From: Desulfobulbaceae bacterium
Lineage (GTDB): Bacteria; Desulfobacterota; Desulfobulbia; Desulfobulbales; VMSU01
Direction: 5' to 3'
Length of the DNA: 64,000 nucleotides
Assembly (NCBI GenBank): GCA_013792005.1
Contig: VMSU01000190.1
Span: forward strand, 1-64,000
Position numbers and translations under genes: made by a program. Shown one piece after another: positions 10,230-33,556 of the stretch. Position 1 is the stretch's first letter; each line of letters opens with the position of its first letter. Below the pieces are notes generated by a model that saw only the letters and a list, made by a program, of their open reading frames with translations, ran no database searches and had not been told where the DNA came from.

Positions 10230-10276
10230 TGTAATGAATATTAAAAGCCTTTGTAGGGTGGGCGCCGCTCACCAAA

Positions 10277-10774: not shown

Positions 10775-10871
10775 ATCGGGGTGAGAGCAGGTTGTTGACG
10801 AGAGTTAAAGCATAAATAACAGGTGGATGTACAACGCTTAAGGCGTTTTTTTACCCGAAGGAGATTGTTAT

Positions 10872-16683: not shown

Positions 16684-17061
16684 TTTAACGCGTTGTCTAC
16701 GTATTCTCAAGTTTCTAGGCAGCAACTAACAGGTAAGCCACATTTTCCTGAAAAATCGTAAGAATCCCATAAAGACAGGCGTTGTCAAACCCGATCAGTT
16801 CTATGCCTTTTTACCAAAGATTGAAAGTTCACCATCCACTGACGATGCTTTTTAGGGTTGCTCCAAAAATGCTCTGGATAATGGATGGATTGAAATGACC
16901 ATTTCTGGAAAACCAAGCAGTCGATTGCAAAGATATCGCCTGACAGAAATGGGACGTTTAAGGCTGAAGAGCTTGAAGTGTCGTAATCGTTCACCAGAAG
17001 CGTTGAACGTGCGGATTTCACCGGATTGTAAACGTTTACCGGGCGCGTCTTATATTTTAGG
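16684..17061. other. 378-base intergenic region with decayed gene remnant
   Basis: This stretch separates two convergent genes (diguanylate cyclase on +, M20 deacylase on -). A 112-codon minus-strand frame (16785-17123) overlaps the deacylase end and looks like noise. The best content is the + strand remnant at 16868-16957. A perfect 12-bp palindrome GTAAACGTTTAC is at 17028-17039. Confidence 0.45.
16868..16957 (+). pseudogene. Remnant of an AlbA_2/COG2865-type ATP-binding regulator C-terminus
   Basis: In one + frame the translation reads LDNGWIEMTISGKPSSRLQR then YRLTEMGR. This strongly resembles the ending (roughly LIEMTIPDKP.S..QKYRLT) of the putative ATP-binding/HTH proteins of the AlbA_2 (COG2865) group. 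An in-frame TAG sits about 12 bases upstream and no start or ribosome site is present, so only a decayed 3' fragment remains. The resemblance is from memory of the family. Confidence 0.4.
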
Positions 17062-18180
17062 TTAATTTCCTTTGAGAAATGAGGCGAGCACCTCGCTTGC
17101 GGCGGAAACCTGGTTGAGTTCAATGTGCTCGTCTACCTGATGGGCCTGAGTGATGTGGCCTGGTCCCCAGATGATGCACGGCCCGTTATCCTGGAGTTCT
17201 GAGCAATCGGTGGCGTATCCGGCATTGCCCGCTTCGTCGCTGTGGCCCGCCTTTCGAAGCGCTTCCTGGAATTGTCGTATTAATGGGTTGTCTATCTCGG
17301 TCTGTACTCCTCGGGCGAAAAAAAGATTCTCGACTGCCCCTCGGTTGCCAACGACCTGCTGGATGGCTCTGGCGATCTTCTGAGGGTGATGTTCCGGTAA
17401 TAAGCGCACATCAACCGATATTTCGCAGTGGTCCGGAATGATATTGACGGAGACCCCTCCCTTGATTTGGGTGACGGCAAGCGAGGCTCGTCCGAGTTCT
17501 GGATGTTTGCGCCGCGAGAGTCGACAGGCGAAGAGTTGTAAATCGTCAATGATCTCAACCATGCCGAGGATGGCATTTATGCCGAGGTCCGGTGTTGATG
17601 AGTGAACAGCCTTGCCATGGCTGGTTACCCGGCAACGGTAAACTCCTTTGTGTGCCTTAACCAGCTTGAGACTGGTCGGTTCGAGGCACAGGCACAGGTC
17701 CCACGAGCCAACTCCCTCTCTCAGGGCTGCGGCTCCTCTCAGGCTACACTCCTCATCAATCGTGGCGGCAAAGGTTACGTCATATCGCCACACATCTCGC
17801 TGTGTTCGTAATTGGATTAAGGTGCTTAAGGCAGTGGCCAGAGGCCCTTTGTCGTCACACGCGCCACGCCCCCAAATCTTTTCTTCCTTGATCTGCCCGG
17901 CAAAGGGATCACTCATGCCGGAGGCGCTGACTGTGTCCAGATGGGCTACAATCAGAAGTTTTGGTTTTTCTGGATTGGGGAATCGGGCAATGAAGTTGGG
18001 TCGTCCTGGAACGACCTCTTGGATTTGGTGCTCAATGTCCATGGACGCGCAGAGGTTTGCCAGACGGTTGACCAGTGCCAATTCTGGGGCGGTGGCATCG
18101 GTCTGTGTCTGGCCTGATGATTCGCTGGGGATGCCGATCAGCTCCTGAATCAGAGCTATGGTGTGATTGATGTCGATCAT
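17062..18180 (-). CDS. M20 family deacylase (ArgE/DapE-like, acetylornithine deacetylase type)
   Basis: 372 residues. Metal-binding features of the M20 peptidase family are in order: VAHLDTV (His plus adjacent Asp), GRGACDDKG (bridging Asp), DEECS (Glu-Glu catalytic/metal pair), LCLEPTS (Glu) and a C-terminal GHITQAHQVDEH (His). A dimerisation lid domain sits in the middle (about 170-290). Family members remove acyl groups from amino acids, for example N-acetylornithine to ornithine; the precise substrate cannot be read from sequence. I chose the ATG at 18180 because GGAGGA lies 5 bases before it; an ATG four codons upstream (18192) is less well served. It is transcribed in the same direction as the metal importer but separated by 92 bases. 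Confidence 0.85.
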   Translation of the reverse strand: MIDINHTIALIQELIGIPSESSGQTQTDATAPELALVNRLANLCASMDIEHQIQEVVPGRPNFIARFPNPEKPKLLIVAHLDTVSASGMSDPFAGQIKEEKIWGRGACDDKGPLATALSTLIQLRTQRDVWRYDVTFAATIDEECSLRGAAALREGVGSWDLCLCLEPTSLKLVKAHKGVYRCRVTSHGKAVHSSTPDLGINAILGMVEIIDDLQLFACRLSRRKHPELGRASLAVTQIKGGVSVNIIPDHCEISVDVRLLPEHHPQKIARAIQQVVGNRGAVENLFFARGVQTEIDNPLIRQFQEALRKAGHSDEAGNAGYATDCSELQDNGPCIIWGPGHITQAHQVDEHIELNQVSAASEVLASFLKGN

Positions 18181-18272
18181 GAAGTCCTCCATTATAACCC
18201 CTCAGGTGATGAGGATGGATACCGAAGGGTGTCGGCGTTGGTTTGATATTCTAATTGGGTTGTTGTGAAAAA

Positions 18273-19139
18273 TCAGTTGCTACGGATGGAGCGGCGTCGG
18301 GTAACCAAAAGGCTGACGGTGAACCAGCCACTGGCGACCAGGATGATAGTTGCCCCGGTGGCGGTGTTGGCCCAATCTTGTGCGGAAATGATCAGCCCGG
18401 TAATTGCCGATGACAGGCTGACGATCAGAGACCACCAGAACATGCTTCCAGCGGAACGGGCCAGATTTCTGGCAGTGGCGGCAGGCACTACCAGCAGGGC
18501 AGTCACCAGCAGCACCCCAACGGCCCAGACCGCAAAGATGACCACTAAGGAGAGGAGCGCTGCGAAGCAGTATTGATAAATGGCGACCCGCACCTTGTGC
18601 ACTTGCGCCAGCAGCGGGTTGAAGCCGATGTAGAGCATATGGTTGTAGCCCCAGGCTTGAAAGAGCATGATAATGATGAAGAGCGCAATGAGTGAGGTTA
18701 TCGTTTCGTCGCCAATGGTCAAAATGTCTCCGTAGAGAAAACGTTGCAGGTCACGGGCGACATTGCGATCCCGGCTGACCACAGCAAGACCAAAGGCGAC
18801 CACAGCTGAGAAGAAGACGCCGATCACGGTATCGGAAGAGAGGTTGGATTTTCTTTGAACCATCATGATGGTGATTCCAACCATCACTCCGAAGATCAGC
18901 ATGCTCCAATGAGGGTTGATCGAGAAGATCAGGCCTAGGGCGACACCGGCAAAGGCAGAGTGGCTGATGGCGTCGGCGAAGAATGCCATCCGGAAGTTGA
19001 CGACCTGTACGCCCATGGTTGCAGCCATGGGGGCAAGGAGGATCAGTCCGATCAGGGCCTGTTGCATGAATGTCGCTTCCAGGCATTGAAAGGGGAGGAT
19101 GGTGGTAATGAGCTGGGAGAGGAGGCGCTGATCAGTCAC
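18273..19139 (-). CDS. znuB: Zinc/manganese-type ABC transporter permease
   Basis: About 288 residues with 7-8 hydrophobic segments and typical ABC-3 family features (LLAPMAATMGVQVVNFRMAF, AISHSAFAGVALG). It forms the membrane channel of a divalent-metal importer with the ATPase and binding protein just upstream in the operon. The start is probably the GTG at 19139, preceded by GGAGG and overlapping the ATPase stop codon (GTGACTGA), a usual sign of translational coupling; an ATG about 24 codons further in would give a shorter protein. The metal could be zinc or manganese; the His-rich loop of the binding protein favours zinc. Confidence 0.87.
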   Translation of the reverse strand: MTDQRLLSQLITTILPFQCLEATFMQQALIGLILLAPMAATMGVQVVNFRMAFFADAISHSAFAGVALGLIFSINPHWSMLIFGVMVGITIMMVQRKSNLSSDTVIGVFFSAVVAFGLAVVSRDRNVARDLQRFLYGDILTIGDETITSLIALFIIIMLFQAWGYNHMLYIGFNPLLAQVHKVRVAIYQYCFAALLSLVVIFAVWAVGVLLVTALLVVPAATARNLARSAGSMFWWSLIVSLSSAITGLIISAQDWANTATGATIILVASGWFTVSLLVTRRRSIRSN

Positions 19140-19938
19140 GGCGACCCTCCGGAGTGCAGCAGGAGGCGGTACAGCCTGGCCCGGCCTCGGGCATGGCGTG
19201 GGTGGCGACAAGTCCCATGTGGAGACCGAAGGTGGCAGTAAGGGTTTCGCTGGTTAACACCTGTCGGGGCGGCCCTGCGGTGATGACGGTGTGATTGAGG
19301 CAGATCACATAGGATGAGTGATGAGTCACCGTGGCTAGGTCATGGCTGACAATGAGCTGGGTGAAGGTATGCTTGAGGCGCAGGGTATCTAACAGTTCGC
19401 AAAAAATCTGTTCTCCTCGGAAATCTACGCCAGCCGCAGGTTCATCAAGGATCAGCAGATCGGGATCTTGCTGAAGGGCCAGGGCAAGCAGGACACGCTG
19501 AACTTCACCCCCGGATAGGGCCCCGAGTTGCCGGTCTGCTAGGCCTTCGGCTTGAACAGTGAGGAGTAGATCGCGGGCGCGATCGGTATGCTTTTGTCGT
19601 CTGCCGAGCCAGAGGGGAATACGTTGTTGGCCCATGGTCATGAAATCCATTACTGTCATGGGGATGCCGCGATCAAAGAGAAGGCGTTGCGGAACGTAGC
19701 CGATACGTGGCGGAGTCATGGGTTGGTCTGTAGTGATGGTAATAGCGCCGGTGTAGGGCAGTTGTCCCAGTAGCGCCAAGAGCAGGGTTGTCTTTCCTGA
19801 ACCGTTGGGGCCGACGATGGCGGTGCAGCTGCCTCGGGGGATGGTTGCGCTTACCTTGTCGAGGATTGGTACGCCGCCAAGGGTGACGGTAACTTCGGAA
19901 AAGGTAACAGCAATGGGGGGGGGCGCCATTAGCTGCAT
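19132..19938 (-). CDS. znuC: Zinc/manganese-type ABC transporter ATPase
   Basis: 268 residues. Walker A GPNGSGKTT (about 40-48), signature LSGGEVQRV, Walker B LLILDEPAAG and the switch His in IVSHDL are all intact, so it should be an active ATPase powering metal import on the cytoplasmic face. The C-terminus ends in a Cys/His-containing tail (GCTASCCTPEG), common in ZnuC-type ATPases. The ATG at 19938 lies one base after the stop of the binding-protein gene; a GTG at 19950 would overlap it. The gene overlaps the permease gene by 8 bases. Confidence 0.88.
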   Translation of the reverse strand: MQLMAPPPIAVTFSEVTVTLGGVPILDKVSATIPRGSCTAIVGPNGSGKTTLLLALLGQLPYTGAITITTDQPMTPPRIGYVPQRLLFDRGIPMTVMDFMTMGQQRIPLWLGRRQKHTDRARDLLLTVQAEGLADRQLGALSGGEVQRVLLALALQQDPDLLILDEPAAGVDFRGEQIFCELLDTLRLKHTFTQLIVSHDLATVTHHSSYVICLNHTVITAGPPRQVLTSETLTATFGLHMGLVATHAMPEAGPGCTASCCTPEGRRD

Positions 19939-19939
19939 G

Positions 19940-20884
19940 TTATCGTGCACCGAGTGTCGAGGAGAGTGTGTCCATATTATCGCGCATTACCTTTTCATAA
20001 TAATCGAGGTCTGCGTCGTCTGGGCCAGTTGCTACCGGGTCGAGAGTGGCTGATGCGATGCCGATTTCTTTGGCAATCGTTTGAATTACCCTGGAGGGAT
20101 ATTGGGGTTCAGCGAAGATTGCCTTTGCCTGTGAGGCTTTGGCAGTTTTGATCAGGGCGATCATTTCGGATGCCGATGGTTCTTGACCTGGGTCTGATTC
20201 TATTACGGCCACGACGTCGAGCCCCATGTCCCGGGCTAGATAATCGAAGACGCTATGTTGGGTTATTATTTTTTTTGAGGAGAGTGTTGAGGCAAGGGTG
20301 GTGAATTCTTGGGCAAGGGCATTCATTTTTTCCGCATACGTTTCACTGTTGCGGAGGTAGATTTCTTTGCCGTCCGGGTCAATCCTGCTGAGTTCACGGG
20401 CGATAGATATGGCAATCTTTGCTGCCTGGCGAGGACTGGCGAAGAGGTGAGGGTTGGGCGCATTGTGGCCATGGTCATGGTCATCGTGGGATGATTTCTT
20501 GTCCTCCGAAGCAAGGATGACAGAGGCTCCCTGTGATGAGTCGATTACGGTGATTTCCGGGTTTGCTTGACGTAATGGGAGCCCCAGGAACTGTTCGAGC
20601 CCGAGGCCGTTAATGATAAAGATATCGGCAGCCGCCAGGAGATGCATATCTTTTGGAGTCAACACATAATCATGAGGGCAGCCGAGGTGGGCCGGCAGCA
20701 TCAGGGCGGCAGATGAGCCCTCTCGTCCTTGGATGATATTGCGGGTAATTTGGTAAACCGGGAAAGTTGAACAGAGGATGCGTAGAGATGGCGCTTGGGC
20801 TCGGGCGGGGGAGGTGAGACCTGTTGCCATCAGGATAACAAAAATAATCAGGTTTTTTTTGATGATCTCATATGATGTTTTCAT
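19940..20884 (-). CDS. znuA: Zinc-binding periplasmic protein of ABC importer
   Basis: 314 residues with a signal peptide (Lys-rich start, hydrophobic core, cleavage near PARAQA). This is a cluster A-I/ZnuA-family solute-binding protein: likely metal-ligand positions are His in CPHDYVL, His in NPHLF, His in TQHSVFDYL and an acidic residue near the C-terminus (LDPVATGPDD). Between the first two ligands lies an acidic, His-rich loop HDDHDHGHN, typical of zinc-specific members. It delivers metal to the ZnuB/ZnuC pair encoded downstream. Its ATG overlaps the 3' end of a methyltransferase gene by 17 bases, so that gene may be the first of the operon. No Zur-type operator was recognised. Confidence 0.88.
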   Translation of the reverse strand: MKTSYEIIKKNLIIFVILMATGLTSPARAQAPSLRILCSTFPVYQITRNIIQGREGSSAALMLPAHLGCPHDYVLTPKDMHLLAAADIFIINGLGLEQFLGLPLRQANPEITVIDSSQGASVILASEDKKSSHDDHDHGHNAPNPHLFASPRQAAKIAISIARELSRIDPDGKEIYLRNSETYAEKMNALAQEFTTLASTLSSKKIITQHSVFDYLARDMGLDVVAVIESDPGQEPSASEMIALIKTAKASQAKAIFAEPQYPSRVIQTIAKEIGIASATLDPVATGPDDADLDYYEKVMRDNMDTLSSTLGAR

Positions 20885-21545
20885 GGATATTTATTGTCAG
20901 GTTTGGAAGTCGAGCTTTGTAGAGTTCAACCCGGGCTGGGGGGAAATTTGCCCATACTCTTGTTGATGATGCGTGTTGCATGAAAGGTGTTAGCGGGCTG
21001 GGACGATGGGTGATTTGGTAAGTATATTGGATGAGAGTGCCATGGTCTTTTAGCATAACTCGTAACTCCTTGCCAAGGGCTGCAACGGTGGCGCTTGGCA
21101 AGGAAAGGAGGGGCAGGCTTGAGACGACAGTGGCTACTTTCCTGTTGTATCGGTTACAAAGTTTACAGAAATTAACGGCGTTGCCATGGATAACCACCAC
21201 ACCTTTGAATCGATTTTTTAAATGGCGGGCCATTCGCTTGTCCTTTTCAACCACGACGAGTTGAGAGGGTAAGACACCTCGGCGCAGTAACGCGGCAGTC
21301 ACAGCGCCGGTTCCGGCGCCTAGCTCGACGATTAATCCATCGCAAGGGAGTTTGACTTGCTCAGCAATGGCCTTCGCCAGTTTGTGTGAACTTGGGCAAG
21401 CAGCTCCGACAGCGCGTGGATTGGATAGGATGGCTCTGGCAAACAAGAAGGGCGGCAGGGAAAAGAATTTTTTTCCAGTCGCAACAAAGGCGCCGGTGCT
21501 CAGGCGCTGCCATCCCCTGGCGGGGGCGAACGATAGTGGTTGCAT
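20868..21545 (-). CDS. PmtA-like SAM-dependent methyltransferase (phospholipid N-methyltransferase type)
   Basis: About 225 residues from the ATG at 21545. The SAM motif I VELGAGTGAVTAAL and a post-motif VVEKDKRMARHL are clear. The motif VVSSLPLLSLP matches the S-G-L-P-L-L pattern of the COG3963 phospholipid N-methyltransferase family (PmtA), which is related to KsgA. It may methylate phosphatidylethanolamine; a different small target cannot be excluded. The reading frame stays open to 21716, but the extra 57 residues are low in order and lack a ribosome site, so I prefer the shorter form. Its 3' end overlaps znuA by 17 bases. Confidence 0.65.
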   Translation of the reverse strand: MQPLSFAPARGWQRLSTGAFVATGKKFFSLPPFLFARAILSNPRAVGAACPSSHKLAKAIAEQVKLPCDGLIVELGAGTGAVTAALLRRGVLPSQLVVVEKDKRMARHLKNRFKGVVVIHGNAVNFCKLCNRYNRKVATVVSSLPLLSLPSATVAALGKELRVMLKDHGTLIQYTYQITHRPSPLTPFMQHASSTRVWANFPPARVELYKARLPNLTINIHENII

Positions 21546-21973
21546 AAGTGAGGTGTTAAGTATTCCGAGTAAAGGAGCGAAAGGTTGTGAAGTGTTGATG
21601 AGTGAAGGTGGTTCGATGTGTGGTGAGAGTCGGTTGGTTCTGGCGAAATTTTTATTATGTTGCAGCAAGTCCGAGTTACCGTGTTCAGGAGCACTATTGT
21701 TCAATCGAGGCAGCATCTCTTATTGATTTTCAATACCATCATATTCGTTTAAGTGCAAGGTGAAGGATGATGGCGTTGCAAAAAGTCCGATCTACTGCGT
21801 TGCGTGGCATTTTTGTTCGTTCGGCATACCATATGTATTGCCTTACTCACAAAAACACCCCGCTCCTTGTATGTCGGCCCTTTTGCTTAGCCATCCCGTG
21901 ACTTTTTGCGAGTTCATCAAGGATGGCAGCAGGGTAAAGATTTAATGACCTTGGGACTTCCCGGTTAACACTC
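21546..21973. other. Intergenic region, mostly repeat family B
   Basis: This stretch holds the possible 5' extension of the PmtA-like gene (to 21716) and the ~150-bp palindromic element at 21768-21919. The rest shows no gene or clear promoter. Confidence 0.5.
21768..21919. repeat. Dispersed palindromic hairpin element, family B, copy 1
   Basis: A ~150-bp imperfect palindrome. It opens TGATGGCGTTGCAAAAAGTC and ends with the near-complement (TGACTTTTTGC...TTCATCA), with a second nested pairing (GATGGC...GCCATC, CCGATC/ATGTCGG) and a central inverted stretch around GGCATACCATATGTATTGCC. A second copy at 54204-54357 shares GATGGCGTTGCAAAA, CCGATCT, CTGCGTTGC, TTCGGCATACC and TTTTGCTTAGCCATCCC. 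It has no protein-coding sense and behaves as a mobile or repeated extragenic hairpin. Confidence 0.75.
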
Positions 21974-22621
21974 TTAATCATGAAATCGATACAGGCGGAC
22001 AGTTCGAGATAGGCATCCCTCGACGTCAAAGGAGGTAGCGGCGGATTGAGAGTGAATTTCAGTTAATTCTTCTTTGGGGAGGAATGGTCTGCCGCTATCG
22101 GCGATAATCACATCGCAGCCATGATCGCGCGCTTTTTTGAGCGCAGCGCGCAGTCGCCGGGAAAATTCTTTCTGGTAAAAAAGATCGGCAACCAGAATCA
22201 CATCGAAAGAGCCAGGGGCGTAGCACTCTGTCGCATCCTTACACATAAGGTCAATTGCTACATTGTTAATGGCCGCGTTGTATTTGGCGACATCTATTGC
22301 CGGTTGGTCCATGTCGCATCCCACTGAGCGTGCAGCCTGGTTCATGGCTGCCGCTATCGCCACCACACCTCCCCCGCATCCGCAATCAAGCACGGTTTTT
22401 CCCTTTACGAGAGAAGGGTTGTTCATGATGTATTGGGACAGCGCTTGAGCTGCCGGCCAGACAATCGCCCAGTAGGGGACGTCGCAGATTGCCTGGCACT
22501 CAGACTCCCAGGCGTGCCAAAGCGCGAAGACGTTTGAGGCTTGGTGCGCGCGAATTTTCGAACAGCCTGCTACTGATGATATGGGGGCATATTCTTGAAG
22601 CAGTTTGTGGAATGGGGTCAT
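21974..22621 (-). CDS. SAM-dependent methyltransferase, ETFB-lysine/nicotinamide methyltransferase-like
   Basis: 215 residues. PYWAIVWPAAQALSQYI ahead of motif I (VLDCGCGGGVVAIAAA) is the hallmark of the family that includes ETF-beta lysine methyltransferase (ETFBKMT) and related protein methyltransferases; VADLFYQKEF follows at the motif II/post-II position, in place of the usual D-x-x-Y. It probably methylates a protein lysine, possibly of an electron-transfer flavoprotein, but no ETF genes are nearby to support this. The ATG at 22621 has no obvious Shine-Dalgarno. It is the most upstream gene of the minus-strand group and diverges from the giant cytochrome gene. Confidence 0.72.
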   Translation of the reverse strand: MTPFHKLLQEYAPISSVAGCSKIRAHQASNVFALWHAWESECQAICDVPYWAIVWPAAQALSQYIMNNPSLVKGKTVLDCGCGGGVVAIAAAMNQAARSVGCDMDQPAIDVAKYNAAINNVAIDLMCKDATECYAPGSFDVILVADLFYQKEFSRRLRAALKKARDHGCDVIIADSGRPFLPKEELTEIHSQSAATSFDVEGCLSRTVRLYRFHD

Positions 22622-22750
22622 TGCGCTTGATGTTTTTGTACGGGGAATTTCCCCTTATTTAGTAATTTATCCTTGCACGGAAAACCTGATCCAAGGGGAA
22701 AAGTGGTAGTCTGTGACGGATGCATTGTGGGCTATTTGGCCAGAGTGATG

Positions 22751-22790
22751 GTGAAATAACCCGTTTTTACTGAAATAACCACGGTGTTTA
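22751..22790 (+). promoter_or_regulatory. Tandem 20-base direct repeat, possible activator binding sites
   Basis: Two adjacent, imperfect copies share TGAAATAACC and a following GT-TTTAC. Placement upstream of a sigma-54 promoter fits an upstream activator site, but no matching regulator is encoded next to it. Confidence 0.35.
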
Positions 22791-22911
22791 CTCTGGTGAA
22801 CGTGGGGTGGTTTGTTAGTAAGCAAGGACAACATTATGTTGGTGTCGAGTCTTGATGGGGCAGGAACCTACCATGAAACCGTATAAATTTAATTAGTCTC
22901 GAATGTTAATG

Positions 22912-22927
22912 TGGCACTATTTTTGCA
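22912..22927 (+). promoter_or_regulatory. Sigma-54 (RpoN) -24/-12 promoter
   Basis: TGGCAC-N5-TTGCA matches the consensus exactly, with the required ten bases between the GG of -24 and the GC of -12. Transcription would begin near 22939, giving a ~60-base leader before the ATG at 23000. Dependence on an enhancer-binding activator follows from sigma-54 biology. Confidence 0.85.
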
Positions 22928-22936
22928 AAAAGTGAG

Positions 22937-22952
22937 ATGAATGACCATTCAT
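22937..22952 (+). promoter_or_regulatory. Perfect inverted repeat at the predicted transcription start
   Basis: ATGAATG-AC-CATTCAT is a perfect 7+2+7 palindrome at the expected +1 of the sigma-54 promoter. It could be a repressor operator or an RNA leader hairpin. Confidence 0.4.
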
Positions 22953-22999
22953 AATGGAAACGGTTTTTTTAAAACGTGAAAGTATAAAAAGGACTTTTT

Positions 23000-25900
23000 A
23001 TGAAAAAAAGCATCATGTTTTTTGACTTTGTCCTGATATCTCGAATTGCCATGGCCTCTGTAGTGGATGCGCCGCACAACGAAATCTCGTGTTCGACTTG
23101 TCACAGTTATTCACTCTGGTGGCAATACTCCCCCGCCAGCCAAAATCCTGGCCCTAATGACCATGCTTCAATTGTTGAATCCGTTTGCATGGATTGTCAT
23201 GATGGTAGCAGAGATATCCCCGCAGTTACGACCCATTCATCGACAGTAATAAATTCCACCGTCCATGGGGTGTGGGGAGTAGGGTGTACATCGTGCCATA
23301 ATCCTCATTATCAGGATCAGCTAGATTGGGTTGGCAGCGCCACGGAGCCTTATCTGGTTACTGGAACAATTTTGGGACTCACCTATGATAGTATTCTTAA
23401 TCAGTCTACCATAGCCTATGGGGGGGCAACTGAAAATCAGCATTGGCCGCAAGTAGGGGTTTTGTCCACTGATCCAGATTGGGCGAATAAGAGTGTGGTT
23501 AATCCTGATCGGGGCTTAATATTGGTCCACGACAGACAAAAGGCTTTGAGCACCTTTTCGATCATCTCCGCCACTCCCGTCGAAGTCGTTATCAAAGGGG
23601 AACTCGACCCGAATGCCGTTAATCCCGATTATGTAAATCCACAAACTCAAATTCGTAACACTACCACCTGTAACACCTTTGGTCTCATTTATGGTCAATT
23701 CATTAAAAAGACCATTGCCGGTAAGGATGTTAAATTCTTCGATCCAGCTGGCGGATTTGTGGGAGATGGGACCAGCGCTACCGGCATCTGCCAGGTATGT
23801 CATACCGATACCACTCATTTTACCAATTCCGGTGTGTTGCCTACAGGTTCAGATAGTCATAAAGGACGCGAGAGAGGTAATTGTATTACCTGCCATAAGC
23901 ATAATGAAGGTTTTAAAGGCAATGGCCATGATAATACGAGTTTCGTTTGGGCTGGTAATTGCCGAACCTGTCATGACCCTGACAATGCGATCCAGAATAT
24001 TGCCACGGAAATTCATAGCAGGTCTTGTGGGCTTTGTCATGTTGAGCCAGGTGGCGGTGGCCCGCAAAAAGACGGTGAGGCATTAAATGGTGTAGATGGC
24101 AGCGCCTTAGGAGCTACTAATGCATCAAGCTGTGTCGATTGTCATCTCAACGCACTGTCTTTGACCGCAGACGTTATTCATCATCAGTCCGCCCATGGGT
24201 ATGCTGATGCGGGCAACTGTACTTTTTGTCATCAAGATACACTTGCGATCCATGATCATCGTGTTGTTGTTCCCAGATGTGCTGACTGCCATGAAACAGG
24301 GGCCCAGGCAGAGATTGATATGTTGCACTCACAGTGTAACACCTGTCACCAATACAGCGGCACAAAGCTTACTCTAAGTGTCGTCGCTAATGCTATTGCC
24401 ACCGGGAAAGGCGCAAGTGGTATTGATATTAATTGTCTTGCCTGCCACATTGGCAGCAATTTTGATACTCAGCAGTTGGTTGGTATAATTCATCATAAGA
24501 CCACTTCGGCGCAGAATAACGAATGTGAATCGTGTCATACGGCGGTGAACCATAGCCCTATGGTGGCGACCACTCCGGCCTGTACGGCAACCTGTCATGC
24601 CGGCACGGCAGGGATGGGGATCGGTGTGCCGGTGTCGTTAACTGATGGCGCTATCCATGATTCCTGCCGCACCTGTCATATCTTTGGCGGCGCTTTTCGC
24701 GGCAGGCTGGTTAACTTTACCAATCAAAAGGGGGTCAATGGCACCGGCACATTGCCTGAGGCCGGCACCGTTGGCGGGACGGACGGCGGTGGTTCATGTG
24801 CGGTTTGTCATACGGCATCAGCAGATCTAGGACTTTTGCACCACACCAGTTTCTCTTTTACCACAGAGGCTGCCTGCTCATCCTGCCATTCAGGTTTAGA
24901 TACCGTGGTGAATGTTCATGGTAATAAGTGTTCCCTCTGTCATGTCGATCCGGACAGTGGCAACATGACCCGCAGAACTGGTGTCGATGGTGACGCCCGC
25001 AATGCTGATACGGTGACGACAGCTTCCTGTACGGTCTGTCATGAACCAACGACTTTCCCGACCGGTGGCATTCATCATGACACTGTTACTGCGGCGAATA
25101 ACGACTGTGCCACAACCTGCCACGTGGCGGTGGATCACAGCATTACCGTGGCCGCCAGCACGGATTGCGTTTCTTGTCACAAGAACACGGCGGGGACGGC
25201 AACGGGTCTTGCGGTATCACTGACAGATGCTGCGATCCACGACGCCTGCCGGACCTGCCACGCCTTTGATGCCCAGAAACGGGGTATTCTTAAGGGATTC
25301 ACTAACAGCAAGGGAGTTGTCGGTACAGGGACCCTGCCGGATGGCGGCGGTTTTTGTGAGAGTTGTCATACGATTGAGCCGATATCGGCCTATCATCACA
25401 CTGTTGCCCGCACGGCGGTTGGTCAATGTGAAACCTGCCATGTTGATCCACGACCGGAGTGGGGGCCCAATAAGCCTGGTGACAATGTCAATGGTGTAAT
25501 AAATACGGGAGTGTCATTGCCCCGGCCTACTCAGATGGCGTGCAAGAAATGTCATGTCAAATTTGAGGGTGGGAACATGATAGTAACCAGATTCGAACGG
25601 CCTAACTCTGATTATTCCACATATCGTAATAATTGGAATAAAACGACAGCACACACTATTCCCATGACTGCCGGCGGCACTATGGGTGCAGGAACTAGGA
25701 TTAATAATTACGGGATCTGCTTAAGTTGTCATGATGGCGTCAAGGCCACTCAGGTCGGCCTGTGGCACGCTCATCCCAGTCGGTTTGGTGGCTCGTCCTG
25801 GACCTTTTCTGCTGAGGGTTTTGGCAAGACGAATCACCGAGGCAGTGGTAGTGCTGCTATGACTGTTAATGAAGGTGGGCCAGGTGATACAGCCCATTAT

Positions 25901-28900
25901 ATTCCTGGTCGTTCGAAGCATCTGGCAACCGATATCGCGCCTCAATCGGGGATTGCGGGATTCAATATTTTTACCCCAAACTATGGCGGTTTTCCTGGAT
26001 ATATCAATACCAACTATAGAAGCAATGCCCCCGGCATGGATTACGATGCCTTTCAATATCCAGCCTGGGATACGCCAACCTTTGTCAGGATTTCAGTCCC
26101 TGAGACAGCGAAGTTGGGTGTGCCCCCGAGTGTAACCTTAAACAACACAACCCGGTCAGTACCGGTATTTGCAAGCCTCACCCCGGTAGCCAGCCTACCG
26201 TCGGTGACCAACAGCGTCAAGGTCAAAAGTGCCATTTACGATAGCACAACATCCACGTTGACGGTTGTGGCAAGCACCAGCAGTGTCTGTGCGAATTTGA
26301 GAACGGTGTATGACAGCGGTGAGACAATAATGACCGGCAGTCCGACGAATTGTATCGCAACTATTGCTAATCCGAATTACCCGGCTAACGGGACTACTGT
26401 TGATGTGACGATCAAGAATGTCCTAGGGCTCGATGTTATTGGGTATCGGATTACTGCCCCCAATCCGGGCGTCTTAGCCTTCAGTTCTGCCAGCTACTCG
26501 GTTGCCGAGACCGGTACGGTTGCCATCGTAGTTTCACGGATGGGTGGTTCAACGGGTAGCGTGAGTGTGGACTACGCAACCTCAAATGGTTCGGCAACTG
26601 CAGGCACTGGTACAGGCGCTGACTATACAGCCGCTACCGGTACTTTGACTTTTGATAACGGCGTCACCGAAAAGACCATTCTTATCACCATCAGACCTGA
26701 TTCAACACCCGAGTATCATGAGACAGTGAACCTGACGCTCAGCAACTCCACTAATGGCGCGATATTGGGGAGACCCGACACCGCCGTGTTGACAATAGTT
26801 GATGATGACTTTGTAGCAGGCACAGTTGCTCTGGCGGCTGCCTCTTATACTGTAAACGAGACAGCAGGGACAGTGGCAATTACTGTCAATCGAACGGGAA
26901 GTGCAGTAGGGGTGGTGAGTGTAGACTATTCAACTAACTCATTCGGAAGCACTGCCAAGGCCGGAAGTAATTACACTCCCACAGCAGGTACCCTGACCTG
27001 GGCGAATGGGGAGTCGGGAAGCCGAACCTTTTTCATCCCCATATTGGTGGATCCGATAGTAATCAAAAATACTAAACTCAATCTTTATATTCACAATCCG
27101 ACCGGCGGTGTCAACTTAGGTGCTCAGATTACTGCGGTAGTAAATATCATTACCCCGGCCGTGGCGGTTGTTAACGATTGGCCCGCCACGCCGCAGCTTA
27201 AGGGTACGACCGGCAACCCTCTGGGGAGTCCGAACAACAACTTTATCATTGGCGCAGGATCTAATCGGCTGCTGCTGGTGGCTGTTTCATGTCTATCCAA
27301 CAACATCAGCGATTTTGGACAGAATTTCAGCGCTACCTATGGGGGAAGATTGTTAACTCAAGCTGCACGACAAAATTCGATTAACCGTCAGACCTGGATT
27401 GGTTATCTTAAAGAAGCCGATATTGTTCTTCGCTCGGATAATGTGGTGAATGTGACCGTCGATGGAGTTCATACCGAGGTTGTCGCATTTATCGCCAGTT
27501 ACCAAAATGTCAATCAGGCGAATCCTGTTGCCACCAGTGGGGGGAACTCCTGGCCTATCTTAAATTATGACGGGGGATATCGGACGGCGGTCAACACGAC
27601 TCCGCTTCAGGTTGGTCCCGGGGGGTACGCTATCTATAACTGGTCCAGTGTTTTGTTGACCCGGATAAGTGATAGCGAGAATTACACGGAGAATGCTGAT
27701 TATCTTCATTCTAGCGGAATAGCATCGAAGCCATTCCCTTCGGCAGCAAACACCAATCCAACTGTGAGTTGGTCTTACTATGCAACCGGTGGTGGCACTG
27801 ATCGCAGTGGGTCCAGTTCTGGGATTACTCTCAACTCCTATGCCGGAACTGTCGCATTCGCTATGTCCACTTCGACGTACAGCGTTAAAGAAAATGTTGG
27901 GGAGGCGACAATCACAGTGCAACGTCTGGGGAGTGCATCCGGTGCGGTAAGCGTCCACTATGCGGCCTCGTCCGGCATCTATTGGACCCTCGCGGGTATC
28001 GATTTTACCCCGGTCTCCGGAGACTTGAGCTGGGGTGACGGCGAGATGACCCCCAAGACCTTCACTGTCCCCATTATGGATAATCAGCTGGCTAATTACG
28101 ATAAGCTGGTAAACGTGACGCTTACCGACCCCACCGGAGCGATCCTTGGTGTACCTAACACGGCAGTGTTGACCATTGTTAATGATGAGTCGACCATCGC
28201 TTTCACTGCTTCAACATACAGTGTCAATGAAAATGGCGGCGAGGTGGTTATCACTGCCTCGCGAGCCAACAGTGCGACCGAGGCGGTGAGCGTGAACTAC
28301 GCTACGATTGCAGGCGGAACTGCGATACCCGGCACGGAGTATCTCCCGGTAAGCGGTACCCTGAATTGGGCGCCAGGTGATGTGGCAAACAAGACTTTTT
28401 CAATAGTGATCAACGATAATACGGAATATCAGGGTGATAAGACAATTTATCTGGCCTTGACCAATCCCACCGGCGGAGCGCTCCTTGGAACCAGTAACAT
28501 GGCGGTATTGACCATAGCTGAGGATGAATCCGGAGTGTGCTTCAGCGCTGGGACATACACTATTAAAGAGGATGGCGGAGCAGCGACCATCACAGTCAAT
28601 CGTCATGGGACCTCGACCGGGCCAGTCAGTGTGGATTATTTGGCGACGGGAGATACGGCTGCGGCAGGAATTGATTTCGGTCCTGTCTCGGGTGCGCTGT
28701 CGTGGGCAGCGGGGGACCTGTCTGCCAAGAACTTTATCGTTCCTATTGTTGATGACACTGAGCCTGAAGACAATAAGAGTGTAACCTTGACCCTCAGCAA
28801 TCCAACAGGTGGAGCGTTCTTCTGTTCTTCTGCTTCGTCGGTGTTGAACATTATCGATAATGATCACCCCGGGACTATCGCTTTGACCTCTTCTGCCTAT

Positions 28901-31900
28901 TCGATCGATGAGGATAGTCTCACTGGCTGGGTGTATATCACTGCCCAACGGACTGGTGGATCTGATGGGGCAGTAACTGTCAATTATGAGAGTTCCAGCA
29001 GCACGGCGGTTGACTATGAAATAAACTGGTATGATACTTACTGGGATTATCATCTTCATCCGAGTTCAGGCACCATCTCTTGGGCTGACGGAGACATGGC
29101 GGACAAGAAGTTACTGGTTGAAGTTAATCGTGATAGTCAATGGGAAGGGAACGAAACCGTGAATATATCCCTTACCTCACTTACTGGCCTTGCGACTTTG
29201 GGTAGCCCAAATTCGACGGTGCTGACCATTGTTGATGGTGATGATTTTCCGGGCAACTTAGCTTTGGCAGCCATGACTTATTCGGTTGGTGAGGATGCCG
29301 GGACAGCGGTCGTCACAGTGACTCGTGCGAATGGTTACAACGGGGCAGTGAGAGTTCACTATGCGACGAGCGGCGGTACGGCAATTGCCAACACCGATTA
29401 CAGTCATGTCGCCGGCAATTTGAATTGGGCGGACGGCGATACCTCTGCTAAATCTATTACTATACCTATTCTTAATAATTCAGTGCAATCAGCTGATAGA
29501 ACAGTGGGTATCGTGCTTTCGTCACCCACTGGTGGCGCTACTCTTGATGGAAGTCTGAAGACAGCGGTGCTCACTATTGTTGATGATGAAGCAAAAGCCG
29601 GTACCATTGCCCTGACAGCGGCAACGTATAGCGTTAATGAGAACATCGGGACAGTGGCTATTACTGCCGTTCGTTCTGGTGGTTCGACTGGTTCGGTTAG
29701 TGTAAGTTGTGCGACGAACGGCGGCACGGCGACGGCTGGTAGTGATTTCATTGCCGCTTCTGGCAACTTGGTTTGGGCGAATGGTCAAACCGGAAGCCAG
29801 ACTTTTTCGATCACTATCTTAGAGGACGAAGAGGTTGAGGGAAATGAAACGGTTATCTTCAGCCTCAGTAATCCTACAGGCGGCGCGGCTTTAGGAGGTG
29901 CCACAGATGGGGTGCTGACTATCGAGGCGCCAGGTGTTGCTGTATTGGACGGTTGGCCCGCTGTGCCGCAGATCTCTGGCTCAAGCTCTACTGTGAACGG
30001 GGATTTCAGTATCAGCGCCGGTTCAAATCGTCTTCTGTTGGTTGCTATTTCATGCATAAATCAAGATGTTCAAACCTTTAGTGTTACCTATGGCGGCAAG
30101 CCGTTGACTCAGGCAACCATGCAACTATCATCCTCGGCAACATGGCTTGGTTATCTGACAGAGGATGAGATTTCCTCAAGAAACGGCGATGTTGTGCAAG
30201 TTTCTGTTGATGGCAGATATCAGACCCTGGCAGCTTCTATGGCAAGCTACAGCAATGTTGACCAGACTAATCCGATTGCGGCTGCTGGCGGTACATTACG
30301 CCCTCGCTACGCATGGTTGTCCTATTATAGTAAGCCATGGGCTATTACCCCGTTTCCCCTGGGTGTTGGTACTGGCGGCTATGGGATCTATACTTGGACT
30401 GACACAGCTAACTCTTCGTTTGCATCAACGAGAATTAGTGATAACGAGAATTATACGGAAAATATGAATTTTGCATTACCTGGAATTAAGGGAGGTGTTG
30501 CCTCTAAAGCATTTTCTGAACTGGCAACAACAAAACCAGCTATTACTTGGGATGCCCCCCCTTATGCGACTCATTCAATTATTACCCTGAATAAGTTTAC
30601 GGAGACTGAGGGAGTCTCCAGCCCTCTACCATCGTTGCTGACCCTCAGAGCCTCAAGCTATCGCGTCGTTGAGAATGCCGGGAGCATTACGGTTACAGTT
30701 TCGCGTGCCGGCAGTAGCCAGGGGGCGGTGTCAGTGGATTATGCCACTTTGGACAATGGTACAGCCACATCAGGCCTTGATTATGTTACCACCTCCGGCA
30801 CGTTGCACTGGGATGATGGAGACATGTCTGACAAGGCCTTTAGTGTGAGTGTCGTTGATAACACTCTGTATAATCTTGATAAAACCCTATCTCTCTTGCT
30901 TTCCTCACCTGCGGGTCATCTTGCGACCTTGGGTAACTCAAGTACAGCGCTGTTGACTATTGTTGATGATGAGCTAGAGCCCGCAACCATCATAGCCTTT
31001 CCGAGTGCATCGTATAGTGTTAACGAGAATGCTGGTACAGCAACTATTACTGTTTCTCGAACTGGAGGGGCGAGTAAGTCAGTGTCAGTAAATTATGCTA
31101 CGAGTGGTGGGGATGCCCAGGTAGGCACGCAATACACTGCCACCTCTGGCACACTGGTTTGGGGGATTGGTGATATGACTGACAAGACATTTACAGTAAG
31201 TATCATCGACAATCTCGCGTATTCATCACTCAACAGGCGAGTATGGATTCAGCTTACCAATCCAGCAGGCGGTGCAATTATAGGGACCCAATATTGGACC
31301 TGGTTGACTATCGTTGAAGACGAGGTGCCGGCTCTTATCGCTTTGGACTCTTCGACCTATTCTGTTAATGAGAATGGTGGGGTAGCAACTATTACGGCCA
31401 AAAGAACCGGAAACAGCACTGGTCCGGTAGGGGTGTATTATGAGGCTAATGGCGGATCGGCAGTTCTATTTTCAGATTATGGACTCACTATGGGGTGGTT
31501 AAACTGGGCCGATGGAGACATGGCTGACAAGACCTTTGTTATTCCTATTGTGGACAATAACGTGCATTCCGTTAACAAAACCGTGAATGCCATCCTGTAT
31601 TTTGCCACCGGTATTGCAGCTATTGGTACCCCGGCATCAGCGACAGTAACCATTGTCAATGATGATCTCTATCTGGATGACGACGAAGATCTTGTTCAGA
31701 ATGCAGTTGATCTGTGCCCCAATACCCCGGTCGGACAGGCTGTTGATGCTGATGGTTGTGCCCTGTTGCAACTGGATTCCGATCACGATGGTGTTGTCGA
31801 TCCCCTTGATCTCTGTCCCGGGACTCCTGCAGGGCAGCCTGTTGCGGCAGATGGCTGTGCCGATACTGACCAGGATACCGTGGCAGATACTCAGGATCTC

Positions 31901-32614
31901 TGCCCCAATACCCCGGCAGGGCAGGCTGTAAATAGCAACGGCTGTGCACTTTCGCAACTCGATACCGATAACGACACTGTTAACGATGACCTGGATCTTT
32001 GTTCGGCTACCCCGACCGGTCAGAGCGTCGATGTCAATGGCTGTGCGCTGTCGCAGTTGGATACCGATCATGACGGGGTTTCCGATGCACTGGATCAGTG
32101 CCCTTTTACCGCCTCTGGTGCAACTGTCGATGCCTCTGGGTGTTCAGTTGATCAGCAGTCCTATCAGTTCCCGGATAGTGGCCAGACCACTTCGTATACA
32201 AATACCTTTGGCGAGGATCATGATTATCCGCTTAACCCATTATCCTATGTGGTGGAAGGTGCTACAGTGGTTGATCAGAATACTGGTCTGATTTGGCAAC
32301 AGCAAGATGACAATACCAAACGGAACTGGGATGCTGCCATCAGTTATTGCAGTGATCTGACTCTTGGAAATCAATCCGACTGGCGATTGCCGAGCCGACA
32401 GGAATTGATCACAATTTTGGATATGGGGCGACAGCAACCAGCCATCAATCCAACTTTTACCAGCACCAAATCGGATAGATATTGGACAGGTGTCTCAGGT
32501 GCTCTGTCGTCTACAAGCGCCTGGACGGTGTCTTTTACTAATTTAGTTAATCCTCTGTTCCCGCTGCAAAAGACAGGCGCCAATTATGTGCGATGCGTTC
32601 GTGGAGGTCGGTGA
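23000..32614 (+). CDS. Giant secreted 26-haem cytochrome with Calx-beta, TSP3 and DUF1566 domains
   Basis: 3204 residues; ATG at 23000 with AAGGA upstream. A signal peptide with possible cleavage after AMA has unusual Asp and Arg inside the core. Residues about 31-910 contain 24 CxxCH haem motifs and two CxxxCH motifs. A region to about 1157 is Ig-like. Eleven Calx-beta domains follow (typical pattern SYSVNENAG...TLTIVDDE): two, then a ~200-residue unknown module (about 1390-1615), six more, a second copy of that module (about 2313-2541), and three more. Five thrombospondin type-3 calcium repeats (D-x-D-x-D and LCPNTP; about 2890-3050) lead to a C-terminal DUF1566 (Lcl) domain with WRLPSRQEL and CVRGG. 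The whole points to a calcium-stabilised extracellular electron-transfer or adhesive cytochrome. No membrane anchor is visible. A sigma-54 promoter precedes it. Confidence 0.9.
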   Translation: MKKSIMFFDFVLISRIAMASVVDAPHNEISCSTCHSYSLWWQYSPASQNPGPNDHASIVESVCMDCHDGSRDIPAVTTHSSTVINSTVHGVWGVGCTSCHNPHYQDQLDWVGSATEPYLVTGTILGLTYDSILNQSTIAYGGATENQHWPQVGVLSTDPDWANKSVVNPDRGLILVHDRQKALSTFSIISATPVEVVIKGELDPNAVNPDYVNPQTQIRNTTTCNTFGLIYGQFIKKTIAGKDVKFFDPAGGFVGDGTSATGICQVCHTDTTHFTNSGVLPTGSDSHKGRERGNCITCHKHNEGFKGNGHDNTSFVWAGNCRTCHDPDNAIQNIATEIHSRSCGLCHVEPGGGGPQKDGEALNGVDGSALGATNASSCVDCHLNALSLTADVIHHQSAHGYADAGNCTFCHQDTLAIHDHRVVVPRCADCHETGAQAEIDMLHSQCNTCHQYSGTKLTLSVVANAIATGKGASGIDINCLACHIGSNFDTQQLVGIIHHKTTSAQNNECESCHTAVNHSPMVATTPACTATCHAGTAGMGIGVPVSLTDGAIHDSCRTCHIFGGAFRGRLVNFTNQKGVNGTGTLPEAGTVGGTDGGGSCAVCHTASADLGLLHHTSFSFTTEAACSSCHSGLDTVVNVHGNKCSLCHVDPDSGNMTRRTGVDGDARNADTVTTASCTVCHEPTTFPTGGIHHDTVTAANNDCATTCHVAVDHSITVAASTDCVSCHKNTAGTATGLAVSLTDAAIHDACRTCHAFDAQKRGILKGFTNSKGVVGTGTLPDGGGFCESCHTIEPISAYHHTVARTAVGQCETCHVDPRPEWGPNKPGDNVNGVINTGVSLPRPTQMACKKCHVKFEGGNMIVTRFERPNSDYSTYRNNWNKTTAHTIPMTAGGTMGAGTRINNYGICLSCHDGVKATQVGLWHAHPSRFGGSSWTFSAEGFGKTNHRGSGSAAMTVNEGGPGDTAHYIPGRSKHLATDIAPQSGIAGFNIFTPNYGGFPGYINTNYRSNAPGMDYDAFQYPAWDTPTFVRISVPETAKLGVPPSVTLNNTTRSVPVFASLTPVASLPSVTNSVKVKSAIYDSTTSTLTVVASTSSVCANLRTVYDSGETIMTGSPTNCIATIANPNYPANGTTVDVTIKNVLGLDVIGYRITAPNPGVLAFSSASYSVAETGTVAIVVSRMGGSTGSVSVDYATSNGSATAGTGTGADYTAATGTLTFDNGVTEKTILITIRPDSTPEYHETVNLTLSNSTNGAILGRPDTAVLTIVDDDFVAGTVALAAASYTVNETAGTVAITVNRTGSAVGVVSVDYSTNSFGSTAKAGSNYTPTAGTLTWANGESGSRTFFIPILVDPIVIKNTKLNLYIHNPTGGVNLGAQITAVVNIITPAVAVVNDWPATPQLKGTTGNPLGSPNNNFIIGAGSNRLLLVAVSCLSNNISDFGQNFSATYGGRLLTQAARQNSINRQTWIGYLKEADIVLRSDNVVNVTVDGVHTEVVAFIASYQNVNQANPVATSGGNSWPILNYDGGYRTAVNTTPLQVGPGGYAIYNWSSVLLTRISDSENYTENADYLHSSGIASKPFPSAANTNPTVSWSYYATGGGTDRSGSSSGITLNSYAGTVAFAMSTSTYSVKENVGEATITVQRLGSASGAVSVHYAASSGIYWTLAGIDFTPVSGDLSWGDGEMTPKTFTVPIMDNQLANYDKLVNVTLTDPTGAILGVPNTAVLTIVNDESTIAFTASTYSVNENGGEVVITASRANSATEAVSVNYATIAGGTAIPGTEYLPVSGTLNWAPGDVANKTFSIVINDNTEYQGDKTIYLALTNPTGGALLGTSNMAVLTIAEDESGVCFSAGTYTIKEDGGAATITVNRHGTSTGPVSVDYLATGDTAAAGIDFGPVSGALSWAAGDLSAKNFIVPIVDDTEPEDNKSVTLTLSNPTGGAFFCSSASSVLNIIDNDHPGTIALTSSAYSIDEDSLTGWVYITAQRTGGSDGAVTVNYESSSSTAVDYEINWYDTYWDYHLHPSSGTISWADGDMADKKLLVEVNRDSQWEGNETVNISLTSLTGLATLGSPNSTVLTIVDGDDFPGNLALAAMTYSVGEDAGTAVVTVTRANGYNGAVRVHYATSGGTAIANTDYSHVAGNLNWADGDTSAKSITIPILNNSVQSADRTVGIVLSSPTGGATLDGSLKTAVLTIVDDEAKAGTIALTAATYSVNENIGTVAITAVRSGGSTGSVSVSCATNGGTATAGSDFIAASGNLVWANGQTGSQTFSITILEDEEVEGNETVIFSLSNPTGGAALGGATDGVLTIEAPGVAVLDGWPAVPQISGSSSTVNGDFSISAGSNRLLLVAISCINQDVQTFSVTYGGKPLTQATMQLSSSATWLGYLTEDEISSRNGDVVQVSVDGRYQTLAASMASYSNVDQTNPIAAAGGTLRPRYAWLSYYSKPWAITPFPLGVGTGGYGIYTWTDTANSSFASTRISDNENYTENMNFALPGIKGGVASKAFSELATTKPAITWDAPPYATHSIITLNKFTETEGVSSPLPSLLTLRASSYRVVENAGSITVTVSRAGSSQGAVSVDYATLDNGTATSGLDYVTTSGTLHWDDGDMSDKAFSVSVVDNTLYNLDKTLSLLLSSPAGHLATLGNSSTALLTIVDDELEPATIIAFPSASYSVNENAGTATITVSRTGGASKSVSVNYATSGGDAQVGTQYTATSGTLVWGIGDMTDKTFTVSIIDNLAYSSLNRRVWIQLTNPAGGAIIGTQYWTWLTIVEDEVPALIALDSSTYSVNENGGVATITAKRTGNSTGPVGVYYEANGGSAVLFSDYGLTMGWLNWADGDMADKTFVIPIVDNNVHSVNKTVNAILYFATGIAAIGTPASATVTIVNDDLYLDDDEDLVQNAVDLCPNTPVGQAVDADGCALLQLDSDHDGVVDPLDLCPGTPAGQPVAADGCADTDQDTVADTQDLCPNTPAGQAVNSNGCALSQLDTDNDTVNDDLDLCSATPTGQSVDVNGCALSQLDTDHDGVSDALDQCPFTASGATVDASGCSVDQQSYQFPDSGQTTSYTNTFGEDHDYPLNPLSYVVEGATVVDQNTGLIWQQQDDNTKRNWDAAISYCSDLTLGNQSDWRLPSRQELITILDMGRQQPAINPTFTSTKSDRYWTGVSGALSSTSAWTVSFTNLVNPLFPLQKTGANYVRCVRGGR

Positions 32615-32661
32615 GGGTTGCGGAAATTGAATAGTATCAAAGTTTATCATGAGGAGAAGTG

Positions 32662-33111
32662 ATGATTAAGATTCGTAATTTTCTGGCAGTTATTGGCGTG
32701 TTGTTGGCGATACCAGCCTGGGCAGTGAATTATACCGACAATGGCAACGGTACGGTAACCGATACCCGCACTAAACTTGTCTGGCAGCAGACGGACGATG
32801 GTGTGCAAAGGACCTGGGAAGGGGCTATCGCGTATTGCGAAGGATTGTCTCTGGGTGGGGCGATAGACTGGCGCCTCCCTAATTATAAGGCGTTGCTCTC
32901 TCTTGTTGATGATAGTCGGTCCAATCCAGCTATTGACCCGATTTTCGGAAATAACAATTCTCCCTTCTTTTATTGGACATCGACCACAATTCCGGGACAA
33001 ACACCCCCCAATGGTCTGGCAGCTGCAGTTTTTTTTGAGCAAGGCACAGGAGCACAGGATAATAAGGTTAATCCGTATTCCCTTGCTCGATGTGTAAGGG
33101 GAGGCAATTAG
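32662..33111 (+). CDS. Small secreted DUF1566 (Lcl C-terminal domain) protein
   Basis: 149 residues with a clear signal peptide (Lys/Arg start, hydrophobic core, cleavage near AWA-VNY). The mature part is a single DUF1566 domain: LVWQQTDDG, AIAYCEGL, WRLPNYKALLSLVD, FYWTSTT and the end CVRGG. It is homologous to the last ~115 residues of the giant cytochrome, whose stop lies 47 bases upstream, so it is probably cotranscribed and may interact with it. ATG at 32662 is favoured by GAGGAG 5-10 bases upstream. The fold is related to C-type-lectin/sulfatase-modifying-like folds; function is unknown. Confidence 0.85.
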   Translation: MIKIRNFLAVIGVLLAIPAWAVNYTDNGNGTVTDTRTKLVWQQTDDGVQRTWEGAIAYCEGLSLGGAIDWRLPNYKALLSLVDDSRSNPAIDPIFGNNNSPFFYWTSTTIPGQTPPNGLAAAVFFEQGTGAQDNKVNPYSLARCVRGGN

Positions 33112-33343: not shown

Positions 33344-33431
<88 letters not shown>

Positions 33432-33454
33432 CCATCATATAGATTGTTTTTTTT

Positions 33455-33556
33455 GATAGCCGGGTCCCGCGCAATAAAGGCTCACGAACCCCGCCAGGTC
33501 CGGGAGGAAGCAACGGTAGTGAATACCTTTATGTGCCGCGGGGGTGCCTGGCTATC
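33455..33556 (+). ncRNA. ffs: Signal recognition particle RNA (small, 4.5S type)
   Basis: About 102 bases. The ends pair (GATAGCC with GGCTATC), and the apical domain contains the universal core CCAGGTCCGGGAGGAAGCAA followed by CGGTA, which binds the Ffh M domain. Length and the tetraloop region fit the short bacterial SRP RNA. It lies between tRNA-Ser and dnaX, a common bacterial order. Confidence 0.93.

Follow-up and report, generated by a model that had tools for sequence, protein, structure and literature searches.

The DNA analysed here (hereafter the window) is a stretch of 64,000 nucleotides from a Desulfobulbaceae bacterium (assembly GCA_013792005.1, contig VMSU01000190.1, positions 1 to 64,000), which carries a gene for a protein of 3204 residues that begins as a multihaem cytochrome and goes on as a long chain of beta domains (Table 1). 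An RBS-like sequence, AAAAGGAC, lies immediately 5' of its ATG. Pfam recognised in the product Calx-beta (4.7e-169, in 11 stretches), Lcl_C (2.1e-26) and TSP_3 (1.8e-10), together with Cytochrome_C7 (8.4e-22), Cytochrom_c3_2 and MtrC/MtrF domain II/IV, all of them over cut-off. This bears out the inventory in a preliminary description of the window, which had listed a frame of 3204 residues with 26 haems, 11 Calx-beta domains, TSP3 repeats and a terminal DUF1566 domain: the frame is open, its haem motifs are 24 CxxCH and 2 CxxxCH, and the other domains are those found by Pfam. Reading of the sequence revealed no membrane anchor, no lipobox and no hydrophobic C-terminal segment, so that release of the protein is possible.

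Table 1. Features of the cytochrome gene and of the gene that follows it, in window coordinates.
Feature	Position	Strand	Basis
Multihaem cytochrome / Calx-beta protein, 3204 aa	23000..32614	+	ATG-started open frame
Sec-type signal sequence, ~aa 1-20, no lipobox Cys	23000..23059	+	Read by eye; aligns with signal-like N-termini of paralogues
Conserved N-terminal domain, aa 21-330; haem motifs at 31, 63, 96, 264, 295 (and 321)	23060..23989	+	Alignment
Haem array, 26 CX2-3CH motifs, aa 31-911	23090..25732	+	Pattern count; c7/c3-like by Pfam and by profile against solved structures
Beta insert, six strands, ~aa 119-234, between haem motifs 3 and 4	23354..23701	+	AF2 model
Post-haem region, aa 912-1070	25733..26209	+	No Pfam match; model not confident
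Cap domain, aa 1071-1152, ends GLDVIGYRIT	26210..26455	+	No Pfam match; beta strands in model
Calx-beta domains 1-2	26465..27148	+	Pfam, profile, fold
Inserted beta domain, copy 1, aa 1387-1605	27158..27814	+	No Pfam match; model block pLDDT 57-95
Calx-beta domains 3-8	27854..29923	+	Calx profile
Inserted beta domain, copy 2, ~aa 2309-2535	29924..30604	+	Likeness to copy 1
Calx-beta domains 9-11	30632..31666	+	Calx profile
Five thrombospondin type 3 repeats	31676..32143	+	Pfam TSP_3; D-rich pattern
Lcl_C / DUF1566 domain, aa 3089-3201	32264..32602	+	Pfam, 93 bits against a cut-off of 34.9
Separate gene, 150 aa, signal-like N-terminus and Lcl_C domain	32659..33111	+	44 bases downstream of cytochrome gene

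All 26 haem motifs fall within aa 31-911, as against an average of 0.54 and never more than 5 in 2000 residue shuffles of aa 1-960. The latter stretch contains 35 His beyond those in the motifs, which is enough for bis-His ligation of 26 haems, and the CX2-5CH motif is absent from the 31 other window frames listed. Profiles of the haem region (N-terminal domain and core) matched, among solved structures, GSU1996 (3ov0, 5.5e-8), a sixteen-haem cytochrome (1z1n, 3.1e-5) and 6r2q_A (5.7e-11), an entry named cystathionine beta-synthase that we take to be the MtrA chain of the MtrCAB complex. As far as can be judged from sequence, the spacing of the motifs and the modules suit a linear array. This array starts with a conserved five-haem N-terminal domain, which is present in 81 distinct ORFs among the fetched loci and has 21 invariant columns in 66 aligned sequences, including the Cys and His of the motifs. 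The domain was modelled by AlphaFold2 with a mean pLDDT of 73.5, and contains a beta insert of some 115 residues (block pLDDT 60-96) for which Foldseek returned unrelated beta-barrel proteins (best E 0.033, best Z 5.5), from which nothing is deduced.

The haem region and the stalk are joined, as had been described, except that aa 912-1152, a post-haem region followed by a cap domain, lie between them. The post-haem region is also recognised in two other loci (L042 and L044), and the cap ends haem arrays in both of these (32 and 69 motifs, respectively) and in two genes of the host genome (G000), on C22 (arrays of 68, 28 and 16 motifs) and C43 (28 and 16). The stalk that comes next is made of 13 beta domains, among which the 11 Calx-beta domains, each scoring >27 bits, are indeed all present, but not as the single long run previously described: they are split 2 + 6 + 3 by two inserted domains of ~220 aa each, which are 50% identical to one another and have no Pfam match. 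Structures were predicted for the N-terminal domain and for aa 905-1619, and it is the Calx domains that take up the fold-match list of the latter model, in which the predicted Calx-beta fold superposes on NCX1 CBD1 (3gin_A) with a Z of 16.9 and 1.6 A over 111 aa. The sequence profile likewise matches the calcium-binding domains of NCX1 (3us9, 1.1e-32). On the assumption of ~4-5 nm per beta domain, the stalk would measure some 50-60 nm.

In the window protein, 9 of the 11 Calx-beta domains end in an acidic run, at what is a calcium-ligand position in NCX1. When the window protein and its orthologue (see below) are considered together, this run is kept in every Calx domain that does not precede an inserted domain (9/9 and 12/12) and in none of those that do (0/2 and 0/2), a count (21/21 versus 0/4) that was made by eye on two orthologues and concerns domains that are not independent, being orthologues and repeats. 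Such a pattern is what one expects if these residues serve Calx-Calx joints. The earlier proposal that calcium stiffens the stalk gains indirect support from these acidic ends. At the other ligand positions the picture is mixed: all 11 domains share the strand-A Glu, and elsewhere the residues vary.

Beyond the stalk come the D-rich TSP3 repeats (which begin at aa 2893, 2926, 2955, 2988 and 3021 by pattern search) and the terminal Lcl_C domain, to which the separate Lcl_C protein encoded just downstream is 40% identical over 125 columns. The two genes are probably co-transcribed: no terminator-like site is listed in the gap that separates them (the scans for promoters and terminators gave results close to chance). 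A standalone Lcl_C gene also follows the haem-Calx gene on host C206; on the downstream side of the three other such genes that were read (L139, L140 and L141), none was seen. The reference for this domain is Legionella Lcl, a secreted, trimeric, glycan-binding adhesin and peripheral surface protein discussed as a T2SS substrate, whose head contains DUF1566, a domain with a possible role in recognising carbohydrates or forming trimers; this head is the outer end of Lcl, and the cell-binding part is an N-terminal helix (PMC11162425, in the part available). Both Lcl and the window protein are long chains ending in this domain, but the stalk of Lcl is collagen-like, whereas the window protein has no collagen-like repeats and carries a Calx-beta stalk and a haem array instead.

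The closest relative is encoded in a MAG of the same genus (G002 C7, JAQUKQ010000007.1, Desulfobulbaceae MAG STD1_110), and shows 67% identity in aa 1-417 and 54% over 3083 columns, which begin at residue 1 and reach into the final Calx domains. This orthologue of 3369 aa has 32 haem motifs, 14 Calx-beta domains and neither TSP3 nor Lcl_C, its stop codon lying 36 bases before the contig end, and the architecture can therefore do without the TSP3/Lcl_C end. Over the first 1160 residues, 647 of 1122 positions are identical, and five gaps of at least 15 residues in the window sequence take away parts of haem modules, which implies that the number of haems changes by indels. Conserved neighbourhood was considered as a further line of support and dropped: the genes to the left in the window are absent from G002, which makes synteny uninformative.

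The search for homologues with the same order of domains yielded, besides this co-linear orthologue, five more loci in which haem motifs and Calx domains are joined, three of them in the host genome and the others in a second family of the order. Those in the host are C206 (at least 32 motifs, 5' end cut, and 3 Calx), C149 (also 5'-cut, at least one motif, the one remaining, and 2 Calx) and a 4471-aa gene on C22, in which 112 motifs in the three cap-closed arrays mentioned above are followed by one Calx. The other two (G010 C25 and G023 C132) are frames of 2628 residues with 48 and 49 motifs, respectively, and 2 Calx each. When 193 genomes of the order were searched with aa 911-1383, 16 gave any match at 1e-8, and in 4 of these (G000, G002, G010 and G023) alignments at 39% identity or more run from the cap into Calx. 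A further candidate, G005 C18, with weak cap-to-Calx alignments at 32% identity, was not counted, because the Calx profile found no Calx in L050, which has a frame of equal length (1647 aa) with 28 motifs. Calx proteins devoid of haem also exist in this order (L142-L145), which identifies Calx as a mobile stalk unit. One of them, a protein of 1113 aa with Calx-beta and the inserted domain (G000:C175, L142:3207-6545 (+)), is encoded a few kb from a secretin-like gene (C175:18197-19585).

Calx-beta is one of several endings in this family. Of the 81 ORFs that carry the N-terminal domain, 58 reach a natural 3' end, and 22 of these, which carry 5 to 112 motifs, continue for at least 300 aa beyond the last haem motif. 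The extensions scanned (host C35, L076, L087 and L091) include right-handed beta-helix, GEVED and fn3, and two of five post-haem extensions in one Pfam scan were without a match. This variety suggests a recurring plan, in which a haem head carries an exchangeable extension of the surface type and Calx-beta is one version. The gene on host C35 (G000:C35, L012:9893-19024 (+)) encodes 3044 residues, in which right-handed beta-helix and GEVED domains come after 24 haem motifs. Elsewhere, a 5814-residue frame (G017:C1:129054-146495, L045/L150) carries 35 haem motifs within residues 1-1680, followed by a long non-haem remainder, part of the stretch reading as N. A short member with 11 motifs and the N-terminal domain is the last of three multihaem genes in a cluster (L094:3-13353) that also encodes NHL, a barrel-like protein of 699 aa, PPIase and a second NHL. 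The 699-aa protein is a putative outer-membrane barrel, to judge by its strand pattern and final Phe, and the cluster resembles porin-cytochrome conduit clusters; no match to the barrel is found in the host genome, and G011 has one at 46% identity.

What surprises most is not the window gene itself but the size of its paralogues. The host genome has 13 frames with a whole N-terminal domain (that of the window and 12 paralogues), which, together with four that lack this domain through contig ends, sum to 984 CX2-4CH motifs. The largest (G000:C173:3-25424 (-), L015/L016) begins with the signal and N-terminal domain of the family and runs for 8469 aa from its Met until it is cut by the contig end, with 264 motifs (252 CxxCH, 10 CxxxCH and 2 CxxxxCH) at a median spacing of 27. 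Another frame (G000:C176:2-17089 (+), L018), open at both contig ends, has 178 motifs in 5696 residues and resembles the former in patches only (78-86% DNA identity), and might thus be a separate gene or a further stretch of the first. Giant genes also stand in tandem on C22 (+), at 8630-22042 (112 motifs) and 22623-28823 (68 motifs, 3'-cut) (G000:C22, L009/L010). In the excerpts available of the sources, 113 haems, in a Methanoperedenaceae archaeon, was the highest number recorded in 2020 (PMC7082337) and 86 motifs, in Desulfuromonas acetexigens, the highest for electroactive bacteria in 2025 (PMC12133095), an ANME cytochrome also having 86 (PMC9012536). The host paralogues are giant multihaem chains of the same kind, with 112 motifs in a complete gene and 178 and 264 in the contig-cut frames, the last figure lying above both of these published maxima.

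Haem arrays joined to surface domains are already known. The large multihaem cytochromes of ANME likewise unite a haem array and surface-architecture domains in one chain, but by means of archaeal S-layer domains and C-terminal TM helices, Calx-beta, TSP3 and Lcl_C not being described in the parts of these sources that were available; no S-layer family was found in the Pfam scan of the window protein. OetF of syntrophic sulfate reducers, by its published description, is a bacterial multihaem cytochrome with a beta adhesion domain, but this is a different one (fibronectin), and OetF is described as a likely part of a conduit (PMC10553843, in excerpt). GSU1996 (3OV0) and Hmc (1Z1N, 1GWS) are single-chain c7/c3-type arrays whose modules the window protein resembles by profile, yet they have 12-16 haems and no stalk, and the likeness is one of modules rather than of the whole protein. 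Similarly, PF22113 matches in three stretches over cut-off recall the outer-membrane decahaem cytochromes MtrC and OmcA, but these are lipid-anchored, and with 26 motifs and no Cys at the end of its signal the window protein falls outside their class. An MtrCAB conduit was considered and discarded, the host genome having no MtrB/PioB (PF11854) match, and none of the nanowires OmcS, OmcE and OmcZ was recognised among the sequence matches listed. In a literature search of open-access journal papers, no pairing of Calx-beta with a multiheme or c-type cytochrome was found in print, nor a bacterial cytochrome with a Calx-beta stalk and Lcl_C, nor the array-plus-cap unit that recurs here in two families of one order. 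For giant cytochromes as such, the same literature yielded, one unrelated paper apart, the D. acetexigens study (PMC12133095).

On balance, we think it rather probable that the protein is a secreted electron-transfer adhesin of this Desulfobulbales bacterium, tethered to the matrix or to the cell surface. Its anatomy (signal-like N-terminus, Calx-beta fold, TSP3 and DUF1566) fits the stalked extracellular cytochrome envisaged in the preliminary description, although the TSP3/DUF1566 end, absent from the orthologue, appears dispensable. The chain would be loaded with haem in the periplasm and then exported in a folded state by type II secretion, for which the host genome encodes a secretin (GspD, at C178, 533 bits). 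Electrons would pass along the 26-motif array, calcium at the Calx-Calx joints and in the TSP3 repeats would hold the stalk straight, and the Lcl_C head, perhaps trimeric and perhaps with the neighbouring standalone Lcl_C protein, would bind an extracellular polymer. The stalk would in this manner hold the haem wire in the matrix or against a mineral or a neighbour cell.

Which end faces the cell is a matter on which we weakly favour the haem end, since the short relative in L094 lies beside the outer-membrane-barrel-like gene and the DUF1566 head is the outer end of Lcl. A serious contender, if on the unlikely side, is the opposite arrangement, in which Lcl_C/TSP3 grips a surface polymer of the producing cell itself and leaves the haem end facing acceptors on the outside. 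The sequence shows no other anchor, and both the proposed carbohydrate recognition or trimerisation by DUF1566 and the peripheral surface location of Lcl would agree with such a grip (PMC11162425, in the part available); the same source, however, has the DUF1566 head outermost and the N-terminal helix bound to the cell, the short relative puts the haem end near the barrel-like gene and the orthologue does without Lcl_C.

We regard it as unlikely that the protein serves chiefly for adhesion or as part of the matrix, its haem array being an electron reservoir (a capacitor) rather than a conduit. In favour of this, about 2290 of the 3204 aa are non-haem, and GSU1996, a solved relative of the modules, has been described as a periplasmic capacitor; the same source describes it as a single chain whose haems are packed as a wire with edge distances of 3-5 Angstrom (PMC10138318, in excerpt). 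Against a mere reservoir, the N-terminal domain stays constant and the number of haems changes from member to member (26, 32, 48, 49 and 112), as would suit a wire whose length can be adjusted, though storage would remain compatible with this. Very improbable, in turn, is a periplasmic cytochrome with its beta domains spanning the periplasm: a signal without any anchor would allow it and single-chain wires of the GSU1996 type are periplasmic (PMC10138318, in excerpt), but a stalk of 13 beta domains, TSP3 and an Lcl_C head would seem typical of surface proteins. Finally, that the frame is an assembly chimera joining a cytochrome gene to a Calx adhesin gene (the source is a draft MAG in 252 contigs, and repeats are present), or that haem region and stalk are separate proteins, which the preliminary description had named as fatal to its view, is scarcely credible, a chimera being ruled out by the orthologue from a separate MAG, co-linear through both parts, and by the five further haem-Calx loci, while the frame itself stays open across 9.6 kb.

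If the protein is a secreted electron-transfer adhesin, it has implications reaching beyond one gene. Respiration of solids and electron exchange with neighbours call for conduction as well as contact, and a single polypeptide here seems to supply both. Among its relatives in the host genome, haem chain and stalk vary independently. We would advance as quite possible, although tentatively, that this lineage builds single-polypeptide electrical adhesins from (i) haem wires whose length can be freely adjusted, in which array-plus-cap units follow a constant N-terminal domain and which reach at least 264 motifs in one chain, and (ii) interchangeable stalks (calcium-stiffened Calx-beta, beta-helix and others), which would fasten the wires to matrix, mineral or neighbour cells. 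If so, charge could travel far past the outer membrane within one molecule rather than through a polymer of small cytochromes, which would make single-chain wires an alternative to polymeric cytochrome filaments, and the paralogues with 112, 178 and 264 motifs would extend the largest size known for one cytochrome. Cutting or swapping modules would then allow the length of the chain, its stiffness and its grip each to be tested.

Other features of the window deserve mention. Upstream of the cytochrome gene (5625-15767), two very large hybrid sensor kinases of 1534 and 1631 aa, with PAS, GAF, receiver and Hpt domains, are encoded close to one another. Downstream, a tRNA-Ser(GGA) and then a bacterial small SRP RNA (33344-33556) lie just upstream of dnaX. 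Further on (47227-63374), a run of co-directional genes resembles a biosynthetic cluster: it encodes a phosphodiesterase, an alpha/beta hydrolase with PilZ, two SDR-like proteins, several related methyltransferases, a radical SAM protein, an 813-aa protein with two CoA-transferase III stretches, an 807-aa protein with a C-terminal methyltransferase domain and a TPR-PilZ protein.
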